From Acidobacteriaceae bacterium (GTDB lineage: Bacteria > Acidobacteriota > Terriglobia > Terriglobales > Acidobacteriaceae): a DNA stretch of 64,000 bases. The position numbers and the translations under genes were made by a program. The DNA is taken from NCBI GenBank assembly GCA_025462735.1, contig JAOAPC010000011.1:1-64000 (forward strand). Reading direction: 5' to 3'. Below are positions 27,608-32,619 of this stretch, piece after piece; position 1 is the stretch's first letter, and every line of letters starts with the position of its first letter. Below the pieces are notes generated by a model that saw only the letters and a list, made by a program, of their open reading frames with translations, was not told the DNA's origin and ran no database searches.

Positions 27608-28528
27608 ATGTCACAAAACAATGGTAGTCCCACCAGCTTACGTTTGAAGACCGGCCTCGCTGAAATGCTTAAAGGCGGCGTCATTATGGACGTGACCAAC
27701 GCCGAACAGGCCGTGATCGCAGAAAATGCCGGCGCCGTTTCCGTGATGGCGCTAGAGCGCGTGCCCGCGCAGATTCGCGCCGAGGGCGGCGTGGCCCGCA
27801 TGGCCTCGCCCAAAAAGATTCGCGAGATCATGGCCGCGGTTTCCATTCCGGTGATGGCGAAGTGCCGCATCGGCCATTTTGCGGAAGCGCAAATTCTACA
27901 AGAGCTCGGCGTCGATTACATAGATGAATCCGAAGTGCTCACTCCTGCCGACGAAGCCCATCATGTGGACAAGCATGCGTTCAAAGTTCCGTTCGTCTGT
28001 GGCGCGCGCAATTTAGGTGAAGCTCTGCGGCGAATTGCAGAAGGCGCGGCCATGATCCGAACAAAGGGTGAGGCTGGCACCGGAGACGTAGTGCACGCAG
28101 TCAAGCACATTCGCCAGATCGTGCAGGAGATGAAAATTCTCACGGTGCTCAGCGAAGAAGAACTTTACGCTAAAGCTAAAGAGCACCAGGCGCCATACGA
28201 GTTGGTGAAGATGGTCGCCAAAACAGGGAAGCTGCCGGTGCCGAATTTTTCCGCCGGAGGCATTGCCACTCCCGCCGACGCGTCGCTCGTTATGCAGCTC
28301 GGCGCCGAAGCCGTATTCGTGGGCTCCGGAATTTTCATGAATGATTCCAAGAGCTTCGCCGATCCTGAAGAAGCGGAGAAGCGCGCTCGCGCTATCGTGA
28401 AGGCCGCCACCCACTTTAACGACCCTAAAGTGTTACTTGAAGTCAGTGAAGACCTGGTTGGCGCGATGAAGGGGCTGGCAGTGTCCGGAATCGACGAGAG
28501 CCAGATGTTGCAGACCCGGGGCTGGTGA
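27608..28528 (+). CDS. pdxS: Pyridoxal 5'-phosphate synthase, PdxS subunit
   Basis: This 306-residue protein matches PdxS along its whole length: '[24 protein letters not shown]', '[20 protein letters not shown]', '[15 protein letters not shown]' with the first catalytic Lys, '[13 protein letters not shown]' and '[21 protein letters not shown]' with the second Lys. It builds PLP from ribose 5-phosphate, glyceraldehyde 3-phosphate and ammonia. The ammonia-supplying partner PdxT is usually adjacent but is absent here and must lie elsewhere. It is the last gene before the repeat-rich zone. Confidence 0.97.
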
Positions 28529-28537
28529 GCCGTGGGG

Positions 28538-28557
28538 GTCGGACACTCTCGTCCGAC
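28538..28557. terminator. Hairpin after pdxS
   Basis: GTCGGAC and GTCCGAC form a seven-base stem with an ACTCTC loop, ten bases after the pdxS stop. No T-run follows, so it may be a weak terminator or a 3'-end stabiliser. Confidence 0.45.
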
Positions 28558-28658
28558 AAATCCTGTGAAGGCGGGTAGCCCCTAACCGGTATCTTCCTCC
28601 CCGGAGGGGTGCCGCGTTCAAACTTCGCTGGGCGGGGACTCCGGATTGTCCCAACAGT

Positions 28659-28842
28659 GCGTGATCCCGAAGACCCCGCGCTTTCACCAGCGGGACGAGG
28701 GATCTGGCGTGCACCGGCACCGGGCCGTCGGTATGTTCATTCGTCACAGACAGACCAAAGCGCACCTGCTAAAAACGGCCATGGGTGATCCGCGCTCGAT
28801 CCCTCGCTCGGCTGGTAAAAACGCCGAGCTTCGGGATGACGC
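28659..28842 (+). repeat. Inverted-repeat element (REPIN/MITE-like), full copy 1
   Basis: The left arm holds ATCCCGAAGACCCCGCG, a CTTTCACCAGC loop and GGGACGAGGGATC. A conserved middle (~75 bp including CGTCGGTATGTTCATTCGTC) follows. The right arm is the inverse: GATCCCTCGCTCGGC, TGGTAAAA, CGCCGAGCTTCGGGATGACGC. Copies 2 and 3 share the same layout. Confidence 0.85.
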
Positions 28843-28877
28843 ATTCCAATGGAGAGATCCCCTTACTGGGCGGGCTG

Positions 28878-28911
28878 GCCCACCCTTTGCGGTTTTCAAA
28901 GGGTGGGTACC
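28878..28911 (-). repeat. CCCAC-hairpin repeat copy, reversed
   Basis: CCCACCCTTTG and CAAAGGGTGGG pair around a CGGTTTT loop. The minus strand reads GGTACCCACCCTTTGAAAAC, close in sequence to the copy inside the glycerate kinase gene at 45157-45198. Confidence 0.75.
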
Positions 28912-29049
28912 ATGAGCTAAAGCTGCCTTGAGTTCTTTTTCATCCCCTATCGCAGCGCTGAAGCGCTGCTCCACCCACAGGCTCCTGATTGTTGCACCTT
29001 CGGCTTCCCCCTTCGGCTTCGCTCAGGGCTTTGCTTAAATTAGGGCTGT

Positions 29050-29090
29050 GGTTCCCACTTCTCGCAAAAGCGGCGAGAAGTGGGGCACCC
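29050..29090 (+). repeat. CCCAC-hairpin repeat copy
   Basis: GGTTCCCACTTCTCGC, AAAAGC loop, GGCGAGAAGTGGGGCACCC. It is almost identical to the copy at 32221-32262. Confidence 0.8.
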
Positions 29091-29112
29091 GGCTTCGGAT
29101 TCTCCCAACAAT

Positions 29113-29293
29113 GCGTCATCCCGAAGGCCCCGCGCTTTTACCAGCGGGGCGAGGGATCTGGCGTGCAGCGGCACTGGGCCGTCGGTATGTTCATTCGTCA
29201 CAGACAGATCAAAACTCATCTGTTAAAAACGACCCTGGGTGATCCGCGCGAGATCCCTCCCTCGGCTGAAGTGCGCCGAGGTTCGGGATGACA
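29113..29293 (+). repeat. Inverted-repeat element, full copy 2
   Basis: It has the same order as copy 1: left arm with CCCCGCGCTTTTACCAGCGG, conserved middle with CGTCGGTATGTTCATTCGTC, and right arm ending TTCGGGATGAC. The right arm has GCTGAAGTGCGCCGAG instead of the usual TGGTAAAA loop. Confidence 0.85.
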
Positions 29294-29310
29294 CATTCGG
29301 CAGCAAGGAC

Positions 29311-29371
29311 GTGTGATTCGCGCAAGGTCCTTCGCTCGGCTGGTAAAAGCGCCGAGCTTCGGGATGACGCA
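29311..29371 (+). repeat. Solo right arm of the inverted-repeat element
   Basis: GTGATTCGCGCAAGGTCCTT, then CGCTCGGCTGGTAAAAGCGC, then CGAGCTTCGGGATGACGC. A second, shorter arm follows immediately at 29381-29426. Confidence 0.8.
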
Positions 29372-29380
29372 ATCCAGCAG

Positions 29381-29426
29381 AGAGATCCCTCCCTCGGCTG
29401 AAGAGCGCCGAGCTTCGGGATGACGC
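29381..29426 (+). repeat. Solo right arm, loop variant
   Basis: GAGATCCCTCCCTCGGCTGA, AGAGCGCCGAGCTTCGGG, ATGACGC. The loop matches that of full copy 2 (GCTGAAG) rather than the TGGTAAAA form. Confidence 0.75.
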
Positions 29427-29462
29427 ATTTGGAAGGATAATAACGCGTCGCAGGGAGTGACT

Positions 29463-29876
29463 ATGAGAAAGCCGAAACGATTTCACGTCTACATCATGAC
29501 GAATGGGCCGCGGTCGCATGTCCTGTACACGGGCATCAGCGGAAATCTAAGCCGTCGCGTGTTTGAACACAAGAACAAACTCGTGCTCGGCTTCACCAGC
29601 CGTTATAACCTCACGCGTTTGGTTTATTACGAGTGCTTCGTTTATCCCGACGCGGCAATCGCTCGCGAAAAGGAAATTAAAGGATGGCGTCGAAGCAAAA
29701 AGATTAACTTGATCGAATCGATGAATCCTCATTGGCATGATCTGGCTGAATCATGGACGGACGTGTACAAGCCCCCGGCTCCCCATTCTACTGATCCCCG
29801 ATGTGATCCGCGCAAGATCCCTCGCTCGGCTGGTAAAAGCGCCGAGCTTCGGGATGACGTATTCGGGGGAAAGTGA
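29463..29876 (+). CDS. GIY-YIG nuclease-domain protein embedded in repeats
   Basis: This 137-residue protein starts at ATG 29463, six bases after GGGAG; a GTG at 29457 is also possible. The GIY-YIG domain fills residues about 6-95: 'FHVYIMTN' and 'VLYTGISGNLSRRVFEHKN' with the catalytic Tyr/Arg/His pattern, 'LVYYECFVYPDAAIAREKEIKGWRRSKKINLIE' with the metal-binding Glu. The last ~25 residues are a translation of a repeat arm (29803-29860), which supplies the stop. Small proteins of this class (UPF0213/YhbQ-like) are putative DNA nucleases of unknown role. Repeat copies lie on both sides of the gene. Confidence 0.85.
   Translation: MRKPKRFHVYIMTNGPRSHVLYTGISGNLSRRVFEHKNKLVLGFTSRYNLTRLVYYECFVYPDAAIAREKEIKGWRRSKKINLIESMNPHWHDLAESWTDVYKPPAPHSTDPRCDPRKIPRSAGKSAELRDDVFGGK
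29803..29860 (+). repeat. Solo right arm overlapping the 3' end of the GIY-YIG gene
   Basis: GTGATCCGCGCAAGATCCCT, CGCTCGGCTGGTAAAAGCGC, CGAGCTTCGGGATGACG. It is read in frame as the nuclease C-terminus, with the stop 16 bases beyond the arm. Confidence 0.85.
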
Positions 29877-29890
29877 AGATAACGCAGCGA

Positions 29891-29980
29891 TGTGATCCCC
29901 TTCACCTTCGCTCAGGGCTTCGGCGAAAACAGGGCAGGCTCTCGCCCCGCTGGTAAAAACGCGGGGCATCGGGATGACGC
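29891..29980 (+). repeat. Variant repeat arm
   Basis: It starts GTGATCCCCTT, includes CTTCGCTCAGGGCTTCGGCG (also found at about 31820-31845) and ends with CGCCCCGCTGGTAAAAACGC, GGGGCATCGGGATGACGC. Nothing else is recognised in 29877-30090. Confidence 0.7.
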
Positions 29981-30090
29981 TTTCCGGATAACATGCACTG
30001 AGGGCCTCTCGCGCATTATCGAAAGCGTTTACGAGTGATACTGCTGCACGACATCCCTTTTTCCTAGCCTGGAACAGTGGAGCGATCCAA

Positions 30091-31548
30091 TTACTGCACG
30101 ATCAATCCCGTGGTAGCCGACGTTTGCAGAGAACCCATGGCGGCGGTGACGGTAATCGTGTATGTGCCGGCTGTGGTACCAGAGGTGCCGGCTGATGATG
30201 TCTGCGCTGGCGCGCTCCCGCCACCGCACGCCTGCAACGAAATTCCTAGGCCCAACACAGCCAGTATCGCCCAGGCGCCGACTTTTGGGCCACGTTGATT
30301 GCTCGCGAGCAGGAGTCCAAAGCAACTCAATCCGGGGACCAGATAAGCCAAGGTCTCCCAACCACGGTGCAATCTGGCTGTGACAGGGGCAGTCGAGACG
30401 GTGAGCGTGGTTGCAGCCGCCGAGCTACCTGGATTCAGCACGGCCGGTTTGAATGAGCAAGAGGAACCGACGGGTAAATTGGCGCAGGCAAAAGAAACGT
30501 TGCTCACGTCACCCGATTCGGGCGTGACCGCAACCTGATAGGTAGCGGCTCCTCCGGGCGCAACCGTCGCTTGCCCGGGCGATACCGCCATGGAGACTTT
30601 CAGCGCAGCCGGCGTACCGCTTGCAAAAAATTCGCTCATGTCAGGCGCAGATTGCGCCGCTCCCGGAAAGGAGGTCAGCCCCAGAGCCTCTGACATTGTC
30701 TTGGGCACGCTGGGGTGTTGATAAAACGTGGTGGACCGGTAGCCCGATTTGACAGCGGGGCCGATGACCAAGGTCGCAATGCGTCCACCACCTGCGTTCT
30801 CAGGAAGCGGCGGGCAGGAAGATGCGGGACGACAATCGGAAAATCCCGCCTCGTCGAAGGTAATTATGAGAATGCCATCCCGCTGGAATTCCGGGCTCGC
30901 GATGAGCGGTGCGATATTGGTCTTCAACCACTGGTCGGCGGCAGCGAGTGTCCCGTTGTGGGCGTCGTCCTGCAGGTTCGGCGTGATGAAGCCGTAATTC
31001 GGCAGGCTGTGGTTGGCGATGTCGCTGGCCAGTTCTGTGAAAGGTACGATGTTGTTTTTCTCACTGCTGTTGGCGACGTCGGTGAAGTATGGAAACGGAT
31101 TGTGGCGCTCCACATAATTGCCGACGTTAAAGCCGGTGTATCCCACATGGGGCAGGCTCTCGGCGTATTCCTTCCACGACTTTCCGGCCACCATCAGATG
31201 ACGAACGATGTTGTCCACATTGAATGTCGCCTTGGTGTTGTCGTCCGTGGTCACGGGAGCTCCGGCCGTGAGCCACATGTAATTGGGAATGGAATAGTGC
31301 GAGTTGGCGTAGTACTCCGTTGCCAGCCCGTATTGCTGGGCCAGCGAGTTGAAGTAGGGCATGGCAGAGTTACCGATGACACTCTCGTAGCTATGGTTCT
31401 CCTCTACCAATACGAAAACGTGATTGGAGGCTGGAACGGCGGCGACCGCGGCTGTACTGAGCAGAATCGCTAGCAGCAAACTGCAAAGCAAGTGTTTCGT
31501 TGAAATGGTGGTCAAAATCTTCCCAGAGGATTTGCGCATATCAGACAC
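30091..31548 (-). CDS. Exported phosphoesterase (AcpA/phospholipase C family) with C-terminal membrane anchor
   Basis: This 485-residue protein starts best at GTG 31548, five bases after GGAGGAG; the ATG at 31539 is next. A signal peptide ends near 'AVAAVPASNH'. The catalytic domain begins 'HVFVLVEENHSYESVIGNSAMPYFNSLA' and includes 'SHYSIPNYMWLTAG', 'ILIITFDEAG' and 'IATLVIGPAV', as in the alkaline-phosphatase-like PF04185 family. A beta-sandwich domain ('VSPGQATVAPGGAATYQVAVTP') follows, then a hydrophobic segment and a second one with an ACGGG sequence near the end. It likely hydrolyses phosphate esters outside the inner membrane. Confidence 0.88.
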   Translation of the reverse strand: MSDMRKSSGKILTTISTKHLLCSLLLAILLSTAAVAAVPASNHVFVLVEENHSYESVIGNSAMPYFNSLAQQYGLATEYYANSHYSIPNYMWLTAGAPVTTDDNTKATFNVDNIVRHLMVAGKSWKEYAESLPHVGYTGFNVGNYVERHNPFPYFTDVANSSEKNNIVPFTELASDIANHSLPNYGFITPNLQDDAHNGTLAAADQWLKTNIAPLIASPEFQRDGILIITFDEAGFSDCRPASSCPPLPENAGGGRIATLVIGPAVKSGYRSTTFYQHPSVPKTMSEALGLTSFPGAAQSAPDMSEFFASGTPAALKVSMAVSPGQATVAPGGAATYQVAVTPESGDVSNVSFACANLPVGSSCSFKPAVLNPGSSAAATTLTVSTAPVTARLHRGWETLAYLVPGLSCFGLLLASNQRGPKVGAWAILAVLGLGISLQACGGGSAPAQTSSAGTSGTTAGTYTITVTAAMGSLQTSATTGLIVQ

Positions 31549-31883
31549 GACTTCTCCTCCTACACAGGGATTGCACAGCACAGTCTCTGGGCAGGTCCGC
31601 AGAACATGGCGCTCGTGCTTTACCGTTGGTGCAGTTGCAATGCCAGAGGAGTGACACAGAGGGAGTGCTGAGCGGACTCTTCTCCACAACGAGTTACGGT
31701 TATGAGATCGCTTATCGATCGTCCAACGCACGTTCAGCAAGCAGCAGTGTGTCGGAGGATTGGCGCGCGCTGTCGAAGTAGTGACCCAGTCGGATTGGCC
31801 GACTTTTCGACTGCGCCTTCCACTTTGCTCAGGGCTTCGGCGAAACCAGGGCAGGCCTTTTCGGCGCTGCCATCAGGGGCGAT

Positions 31884-32067
31884 GTCATCCCGAAGACCCC
31901 GCGCTTTTACCAGCGGGGCGAGGGATCCGGCGTGCGGCGGCCCAGGTCCGTCGGTATGTTCATTCGTCACAGACAGACCAAAGCGCACATGCTACAAACG
32001 ACGCTGAGGTGATCCACGCAAGATCCCTCGCTCGGCTTGGTAAAAGCGCCGAGCTTCGGGATGACGC
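31884..32067 (+). repeat. Inverted-repeat element, full copy 3
   Basis: GTCATCCCGAAGACCCCGCG, CTTTTACCAGC, GGGGCGAGGGATCC, then the conserved middle with CGTCGGTATGTTCATTCGTC and ACAGACAGACCAAAGCGCAC, then the right arm GATCCCTCGCTCGGC to GGGATGACGC. It is 184 bp long, the same length as copy 1. Confidence 0.85.
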
Positions 32068-32220
32068 AGTCCGGAAGAGAGAGTCTAGTCGACGGAGTTG
32101 TATACGCCTCCAGATTCGCTTGCTGCGAACGCCCCAATGTGATCCGCGCGAGATCCCGTTCGACTTCCCTTCGACTTCGCCCAGGGTAGGCGAATAAGGG
32201 CAGGCAGACACAACCTCTAT

Positions 32221-32262
32221 GGTTCCCACTTCTCGCAAGGGCGGCGAGAAATGGGGCACCCG
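32221..32262 (+). repeat. CCCAC-hairpin repeat copy
   Basis: GGTTCCCACTTCTCGC, AAGGGC loop, GGCGAGAAATGGGGCACCC. It is almost identical to 29050-29090. Confidence 0.8.
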
Positions 32263-32322
32263 GCAGGTGGGTTGTCAAAACTCCGCTTGCGCAGAGGATT
32301 GTTTAGTACTAGAAATTGATTA

Positions 32323-32619
32323 ATGAAGAATAAAGCGATTCTCCCGAATCTTGGTTCGGCCTGGTCGCCGATCGATTTAGGTAACGGGAGCTTCGCGTAC
32401 AGGCGAAATGGGCGCTGGCGTTATCGCAACTCTGAGACCAAGCGACGGTTCGGGCGTCGGTTTGTTGAAGCCACCGACCATGACCTGATTAGGGAATTGG
32501 AGTCGCGGGGTTACCAGATCCTCTATCCTGCGCATGAATGTGTTGATCGGCCGCACTTGCCATGCCCGGCGTGCGAGAGGACGGCGCAGCGTTCGATACG
32601 ACAGCGTAACCAGAGATGA
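32323..32619 (+). CDS. Hypothetical small basic protein
   Basis: This 98-residue protein is Arg-rich. Its centre reads 'GNGSFAYRRNGRWRYRNSETKRRFGRRFVEATDHDLIRELESRGYQIL'. A CPACE pair near 80-84 could bind metal. No ribosome site is clear and it directly follows repeat DNA, so it may not be expressed. I recognise no family. Confidence 0.35.
   Translation: MKNKAILPNLGSAWSPIDLGNGSFAYRRNGRWRYRNSETKRRFGRRFVEATDHDLIRELESRGYQILYPAHECVDRPHLPCPACERTAQRSIRQRNQR

Follow-up and report, generated by a model that had tools for sequence, protein, structure and literature searches.

The 64,000-nucleotide stretch analysed here (hereafter the window) covers positions 1 to 64,000 of contig JAOAPC010000011.1 in assembly GCA_025462735.1, from an Acidobacteriaceae bacterium, and contains a cluster of hairpin-forming repeats around a small, stand-alone gene for a GIY-YIG nuclease. 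All features given below are on the forward strand. Three doublets, each consisting of a left arm, a middle of ~75 bp and an inverted right arm, are present: element 1 (28659..28843; left arm 28659-28709, right arm 28793-28842), element 2, which serves as the reference copy (29113..29295), and element 3 (31884..32068), with elements 1 and 3 being 88% and 86% identical to element 2, respectively. Solo arms S1 (29321..29370), S2 (29382..29427), S3 (29803..29859) and S4 (29941..29980) are located around the nuclease gene (29463..29876); S1 and S2 have the right-arm orientation, S2 stands directly upstream of the gene, and S3 overlaps the end of its open reading frame (ORF). A preliminary description of this DNA had noted full inverted-arm copies of ~183 bp, at least four solo arms and a GIY-YIG gene inside the cluster, and all three features are borne out. 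The window copies are intergenic. A 20-base core, CGTCGGTATGTTCATTCGTC, occurs three times in the window and in none of 100 shuffles, and the arm tip CTTCGGGATGAC has 12 matches in the window (at most one mismatch; 10 inside the cluster) where 0.35 are expected; both are far beyond chance. Rfam gave no match near its gathering score over 28400-32400.

The window arms form two-part hairpins, with an outer 5-bp stem (ATCCC/GGGAT), an inner 7-bp stem and a loop of ~10 bases. Their outer end carries a short tag that reads CGTCAT in element 2, TGTCAT in element 3 and, with one change, CGTGAT in element 1, and their tails are CTGG or CCGG. As single-stranded DNA, element 2 folds far better than its shuffles (z = -5.7). 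Across the window arms, 98.3% of stem cells are paired, and the covariation score of 0.287 (0.154 when shuffled) is reached by 0 of 500 shuffles; only three pairs are changed on both sides, a number that 72 of 500 shuffles reach. Stem changes in these arms tend to be compensated.

The nuclease ORF is open from a GTG at 29457, with the ATG at 29463 agreeing with homologues, and it overlaps solo arm S3 with its last ~24 codons. The product matches PF01541 (E 1e-11) and belongs to a clade with a C-terminal NPxWxDL motif, several copies of which are truncated; no domain beyond GIY-YIG was seen in the 139-amino acid (aa) window protein. Residues R34, E71 and N90, which we take to be catalytic, are invariant in the 29 rows of alignment A2. 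The nearest solved chain is 1zg2 (UPF0213 protein BH0048; E 2.9e-12). NCBIfam returned no family above cut-off for the three proteins given, PHROGs returned no match for the two given, and phages contributed 11 records with weak matches only (E 1e-6 to 3e-6).

Among the loci compared, the nucleases nearest to that of the window are those of L170 (74% identity over 133 aa), L099 (76% over 104) and L174 (75% over 99 and 67% over 134). In L174, from Terriglobia bacterium SRVP_7 (JAIQFC010000011.1), a compact unit of 489 bp from tag to tag opens with a GTCAT-tagged left hairpin arm, continues with a short leader and the gene, and closes with an inverted right arm that ends in ATGAC. Against its left arm, element 2 is 90% identical over 50 bp, element 3 93% over 44 bp and element 1 77% over 93 bp, and a 19-base stretch of the leader, ATGTTCATTCGTCACAGAC, occurs without mismatch in L174 and in all three window doublets. 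The doublets also align to the right arm of L174 (74-85%) but contain no gene. Since both ends and a portion of the leader are shared, the 183-bp doublets are most simply read as internal-deletion derivatives of a gene-carrying unit, the alignment being observed and the direction of change presumed. Solo arm S3 is the counterpart of the right terminal arm of the L174 unit, and the ORF continues into the right arm in the window and L174 alike. For 43 clade genes, a downstream arm end is within reach in 35; 12 genes end in the last 55 nucleotides of that arm, seven of them stopping with the TGA of ATGAC. The S2-gene-S3 arrangement of the window recurs in L170, which matches the window from S2 via the gene to S3 (71% over 471 bp), and the window-type layout is therefore not a private accident.

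The leader motif TATGTTCATTCGTCACAGAC lies in the middle of the doublets (28732..28751, 29186-29205 and 31955-31974), between left arm and gene in L174, and, at two nuclease loci in the same genome as the window (C16 and C9), immediately before the left arm. The sequence TTCATYCGTCACAGAC is found at 28732-28751 and also in L056, L057, L072, L068, L174 and L247; in L068 and L247 it stands, over the stretch covered, apart from any arm. It looks like a CRP site and may be part of a promoter or a site of its own.

The genome to which the window belongs (G000; 4.36 Mb, 24 contigs, with Acidobacteriaceae metagenome-assembled genomes among its kin) has 22 BLAST matches to the window element on seven contigs, including two further doublets, at C12 and C15. 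Its eight PF01541 matches comprise one uvrC and seven stand-alone genes, and all seven of the latter are flanked on both sides, within 400 bp, by tagged arms of inverted sense (GTCATCC and GATGAC), with arm sequences varying between nuclease lineages. At C16, C9 and C18 the gene lies directly between one left and one right arm, and at C14 and C11 it lies between complete doublets, C11 reading doublet-gene-doublet-gene-doublet. The tag GTCATYCYGARSR occurs 103 times in this genome and its reversed control twice. Fourteen doublets of all families were measured in 20 fetched stretches of the genome; BLAST of their arms assigns five to the C14 nuclease, three to C11 and two to the window family, leaving four without a match, three of which are short GTCATTCC doublets whose arms resemble, by eye, those of nuclease genes in G001, G002 and G029. 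Three nuclease lineages of this genome thus each match a set of gene-less doublets elsewhere in it. Rows of arms or doublets beside the nuclease, or in its place, were also seen at L326 (G000:C18:4000-5800), L226, L304 and L305, in this genome and in Planktothrix plasmids.

Arms of the C14 family have constant ends, GTCATCCTGAGC and GTCGAAGGAC, between which the letters of the hairpin vary with pairing kept. In the 10 of 24 arms used (59 nucleotides, same loop position; one 59-mer with a shifted loop was excluded), nine pairs are changed on both sides and the covariation score is 0.352, against 0.141 when shuffled and at most 0.064 when slid; the search pattern for these arms fixes their ends, so that the inner stem alone is informative. 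What is kept in this family seems to be structure rather than sequence.

To place the association on a wider footing, 68 GIY-YIG places were fetched from 61 genomes, excluding frames of uvrC length, most other frames above 240 aa and three short fragments (L073 and L106, among the 68, are uvrC pieces at contig ends), and 65 of them had flanks of at least 200 bp. The tag is present on both sides of 34 of these 65 loci and of 0 of 19 uvrC loci (20 were fetched and L139 was excluded as cut). The best inverted repeat between upstream and downstream flanks has a median score of 35 at GIY-YIG loci, 20 at uvrC loci and 21 when flanks are swapped; 42 of 65 GIY-YIG loci and 0 of 19 uvrC loci exceed the 95% level of swapped flanks. 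Judged by protein, the positive loci form one clade, that with the C-terminal NPxWxDL. In a second count, with slightly altered definitions of flank and tag (66 loci), 33 of 42 clade genes and 0 of 20 loci of the REP-associated tyrosine transposase (RAYT; REP, repetitive extragenic palindromic) have the tag on both sides (p 1e-9). Six of the 24 other loci have tags on both sides, all six reading as truncated clade members; none of the other 18, mostly other GIY-YIG types plus the clade-like L078, L101 and L104, is two-sided.

A scan of GTDB representatives with one nuclease yielded 64 loci, which span Acidobacteriota, Gemmatimonadota, Chloroflexota, Nitrospirota, Verrucomicrobia, Zixibacteria, Proteobacteria, Bacteroidota, several candidate phyla radiation groups, Elusimicrobia and one actinobacterium. 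Where enough flank was available, 33 of 63 loci lie above the 95% level and 21 of 63 above the 99% level of swapped flanks, with the inverted-repeat score reaching 31 at most in 46 control windows. Tags point outward at 43 of the 64 loci and inward at 14. The motif GTCATYSYGAGCG, counted in the genomes of 47 of the 64 loci, occurs 94 times in a Moranbacteria genome of 0.8 Mb (control 0), 120 times in Hymenobacter and 82 times in a Chloroflexota genome; many of the 47 have few and five have none, as expected where the arm type differs.

The GTCAT tag recalls a published class of repeats. According to the portion of Di Nocera (2013; PMC3733652) available to us, most bacterial REPs can be sorted into two superfamilies, of which the CGTC REPs carry a CGTC/TGTC tag and have a stem of 8-9 bp that starts with A-T pairs and is closed by a short loop, followed in most cases by a CCA tail. 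The same portion includes Neisseria dRS3 and Rickettsia RPE-4 and RPE-6 in this superfamily, which extends over several phyla, names species such as A. lipoferum and S. meliloti, and describes the superfamily as apparently having no dedicated transposase, suggesting that the enzyme was lost or that various enzymes of a broad range serve it. CGTC-type hairpins were sought by a definition looser than the published one (stem 7-9, loop 3-7, at most one mismatch, tail optional) at 16 loci chosen from 35 hits in a plasmid collection, and were found within 450 bp of the gene at 10 of the 16, a fraction that is no census. Eight of the 10 are two-sided (Neorhizobium, Rhizobium, two Shinella, A. lipoferum, Sphingobium, Aeromonas and a Neisseria record in which the hairpin is dRS3-like) and the others, S. 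meliloti and Photobacterium, one-sided. In nine long loci, 18 such hairpins lie in 8.1 kb near the gene and 5 in 36.9 kb beyond, a 16-fold difference. The tail is CCA in Rhizobiaceae, Azospirillum, Aeromonas and Photobacterium, CCG, CTA or CCA in Neisseria, and CCC in Sphingobium, where the stem has a mismatch. Under this looser search, repeats beside the clade elsewhere thus have the tag, stem, short loop and CCA tail of CGTC REPs. The window arms are relatives of CGTC REPs by tag and position and not members, since the tag and the A-T start are shared and the stem, loop and tail differ.

Because CGTC REPs flank the clade in Alphaproteobacteria, Aeromonas and Neisseria, we infer from the association that it is the best candidate for a cognate enzyme of this superfamily, in the role that RAYT has for GTAG REPs. 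No paper linking a GIY-YIG nuclease to these REPs, or joining 'GIY-YIG' and 'repetitive extragenic palindromic', was found among the matches listed in the literature searched, the scope of which excludes bioRxiv and most subscription papers, and the available portions of PMC3733652, PMC12306157, PMC6006769 and PMC1564403 hold no such link. In a Neisseria gonorrhoeae record (L329), dRS3-like repeats surround a clade nuclease, a finding relevant to how the Neisseria intergenic mosaic elements originated, and in Sinorhizobium K101 (L334) a related nuclease is flanked by a CCTGTGACAAGCACAGGAATGAG-type hairpin that is not of CGTC form and is perhaps another tag variant.

The preliminary description had asked whether copy number follows the presence of this nuclease subfamily. 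Among 297 Acidobacteriota genomes, 35 have a strong nuclease hit (profile A2, E below 1e-30), and at least 30 tags were counted in 29 of these 35 and in 11 of the 262 without such a hit (Fisher p 2e-25). Tag abundance follows the nuclease in this set, although the E-value and tag-count thresholds were set after viewing the lists and the statistics ignore phylogeny.

Boundaries and presence/absence provide a further line of evidence. L167 and L169 are 79% alike exactly from TTGTCATCCC to GGGATGACAA, over 427 bp, with differing surroundings and unrelated flanks. This is the cleanest of 14 pairs compared; L162 and L163 agree in their left boundary, and each of the remaining pairs either is syntenic or has its ends at other places. 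In Azospirillum lipoferum 4B, sufB and sufC are separated by the nuclease gene together with two CGTC doublets; sufB and sufC are adjacent without an insert in A. oryzae, A. ramasamyi and B510 (flanks 93-94% identical) and in A. argentinense (86%). Likewise, a plasmid of Planktothrix agardhii No.66 has doublets and the nuclease after a restriction gene, where two other strains have doublets only. In the search for empty sites in relatives that the preliminary description had called for, presence/absence was found at syntenic sites in Azospirillum and Planktothrix, with no base-exact empty junction in either, and Shinella gave no usable junction. In genus relatives of the window, orthologous mdh and hbd regions were found, and in G002 and G004 (plus-strand matches) the spacer after hbd lacks the element and is too diverged for an exact junction. 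No fixed target-site duplication of length 2-9 stands out in 112 units, which display a weak excess at 2 bases (11.6% vs 4.8%) and at 4 bases (3.6% vs 0.7%); the sequence from GTCAT to ATGAC is preceded by T in 94 of them and followed by A in 96. The presence/absence patterns and sharp boundaries suggest that the units are, or have been, mobile.

Taken as a whole, and including the way of working proposed here, the window probably holds a REP-like element that encodes a nuclease and has expanded into a cluster. GIY-YIG enzymes are known as nickases that depend on metal, and members of the Slx1 type cleave branched DNA. To the observed anatomy, the association, the ends common to gene-carrying and gene-less copies and the patchy presence, the most likely scheme to be fitted is the following. 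The arms would extrude as hairpins in single-stranded or supercoiled DNA, and the nuclease, which like its GIY-YIG relatives should nick DNA by hydrolysis, would presumably cut at or near the tagged foot of the hairpin. Repair of the break might then copy or recombine the arm-bounded DNA elsewhere without a fixed target-site duplication, and gene-carrying and gene-less units could spread via their identical ends. A RAYT-like joining of strands is not expected of the GIY-YIG fold. Extending this beyond the window, it is conceivable, at a little under even chances, that one minimal GIY-YIG clade is the dedicated enzyme of GTCAT/CGTC REPs across bacteria, forming tiny mobile elements (one gene, hairpin ends, ~390-490 bp in compact cases) that spread without a transposase, reverse transcriptase or recombinase of their own and seed tens to hundreds of gene-less copies per genome.

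Several observations weigh against the main interpretation of the cluster. The nearest arms of the window nuclease are right-type on both sides, the left-type arm being that of element 2 some 350 bp upstream, and L170 likewise has right-type arms on both sides and no left-type arm seen nearby, which departs from the left-gene-right plan. L099, with a nuclease 76% identical to that of the window, has another arm type. The correlation between arm distance and protein distance is weak across 82 elements (r 0.24) and falls short of significance across the 30 Acidobacteriota elements (r 0.07, p 0.21), in a set that counts one genome twice (L081/G013 and L163); arms may have been swapped between units, as L099 suggests, or the 45-base arm window may be too crude. 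Nine of the 42 clade genes lack tags on both sides, and 6 of the 16 plasmid-collection loci lack a CGTC-type hairpin by the search definition. Fewer than 30 tags were counted in 6 of the 35 genomes with the nuclease, and in the family of the window the difference is modest, with a median of 73 tags in 26 genomes with the gene and 24 in 10 genomes without it (one-sided p 0.007). Hydrolytic nucleases do not join strands, and host repair must therefore be invoked.

Counter-evidence also comes from genomes rich in the tag without a strong nuclease hit, a situation that the preliminary description had regarded as adverse to its idea and that applies to a minority, 11 of 40, with the other 29 having a strong hit. 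The 11 are G128 (324 tags), G314 (217), G140 and G204 (93 each), G164 (92), G065 (88), G247 (59), G017 (42), G232 (40), G308 (38) and G114 (37). PF01541 was searched in the ten other than G232 and gave frames of uvrC length only in 8 of these 10, the exceptions being a 225-aa frame in G164 and a frame cut at a contig edge in G314. In the loci displayed, solo arms predominate in G140, and G065 has several clean doublets. Gene loss, assembly gaps at repeats or another enzyme may account for these genomes. The suggestion that the nuclease stands in the place of RAYT holds well as an association, because of the flank anatomy in multiple phyla, the copy numbers, the RAYT and uvrC controls and a nuclease unit with the ends of the window family; the tag-rich genomes without a strong hit speak against a strict form of it.

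Such genomes would be less surprising if the GIY-YIG gene were a homing-like freeloader that cuts palindromes and is copied into repeats spread by something else. Classical homing enzymes have the GIY-YIG fold, and the gene often lies between complete doublets (C14, C11, A. lipoferum) or arms of the same orientation (the window, L170). However, the L174 gene lies inside single arms whose ends and leader recur in the window doublets, and each of the three nuclease lineages matches doublets of its own. Tag abundance tracks the nuclease, although a freeloader could show likewise, and the tag is absent at the 20 RAYT loci. We regard this explanation as unlikely. The transposases of the genome itself also deserve mention, since the statement of the preliminary description that no RAYT is visible proved untrue of the genome, which has 12 PF01797 (Y1_Tnp, Y1/RAYT-type) hits; 50 of the 61 genomes searched, this one included, have such hits. 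For this reason RAYT loci were tested. Seven of the 12 hits were placed (L242-L248, on C7, C2, C24, C17, C18, C12 and C5), none of the seven on the window contig among the matches listed, and 0 of 20 RAYT loci (7 from this genome, 13 from relatives; one upstream flank just 236 bp) have a GTCAT tag up to 450 bp away in either direction. The available portion of PMC3733652 also reports no CGTC unit at tyrosine transposases, and it is very improbable that RAYTs move these arms, with the GIY-YIG association being incidental.

A host function could also be imagined, in which a domesticated nuclease trims or resolves cruciforms at terminator or mRNA-end repeats and mobility belongs to the past. The intergenic position of the window copies, the covariation of the stems and the truncation of several nuclease copies agree with this, whereas the patchy presence, the seven copies in one genome, the syntenic presence/absence and the sharp boundaries fit a mobile element better; a domesticated role thus appears quite improbable. 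A function at the RNA level alone and chance palindromes were ranked behind these explanations by the uvrC, RAYT, swapped-flank and reversed-pattern controls.

Other repeats accompany the cluster. A second palindromic repeat, TTCCCACTTCTCGC...GCGAGAAGTGGGGCACCC, is found at 29046-29093 and 32217-32264 (92% identical) and is unrelated to the arms. A third, CTTCGCTCAGGGCTTCGGCGAAA-like, repeat at 29899-29952, 31816-31869 and 29010-29063 (67-81% identical) adjoins doublets. At 32121-32157 the doublet's inner right half recurs in degenerate form (73%), apparently as a truncated element.

If the nuclease-encoding element works as proposed, unrelated nucleases would have given rise to the REP way of life on at least two occasions, and there would be an explanation for a class of palindromes that is common in environmental genomes. 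Genome anatomy names a candidate enzyme for CGTC REPs, including in lineages that the available portion of PMC3733652 names (A. lipoferum, Neisseria and, one-sided, S. meliloti), and the question becomes testable with one small protein and one oligonucleotide.

Among the known systems that come closest are the RAYT/REP systems (REPtron, REPIN, bacterial interspersed mosaic element or BIME), in which TnpA-REP goes with GTAG-tagged REPs. Both have imperfect hairpins that carry a tag, doublets of inverted arms, a nuclease gene between copies of its own repeat and several families per genome. The present system differs in having GTCAT rather than GTAG as its tag, in an enzyme of the GIY-YIG type, which has no relation to the HUH/Y1 tyrosine transposase, and in that single arms can directly enclose the gene as a compact unit (C16, C9, C18, L174). 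A RAYT REPtron has an HUH/Y1 gene flanked by the repeat, and here 0 of 20 Y1_Tnp loci have the tag; dispersed pairs of inverted REPs, as in REPINs and BIMEs, number three in the window and two more of the family in the genome. With the CGTC REP superfamily, the window arms have in common the C/TGTC tag followed by A-T pairs and the doublets, but they have a longer, two-part stem, a loop of ~10 bases and no CCA tail, and the published families, in the portion of PMC3733652 available, have no known dedicated enzyme. As with miniature inverted-repeat transposable elements and their autonomous parents, a gene-carrying unit and copies that lack the gene have both ends in common, although the unit here has neither a DDE transposase nor, in the 112 units, a fixed target-site duplication. 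Finally, the GIY-YIG domain is shared with GIY-YIG homing endonucleases and with Slx1/UPF0213 proteins (1zg2, BH0048), whereas the 139-aa window protein, with no further domain seen, is bracketed by hairpins.

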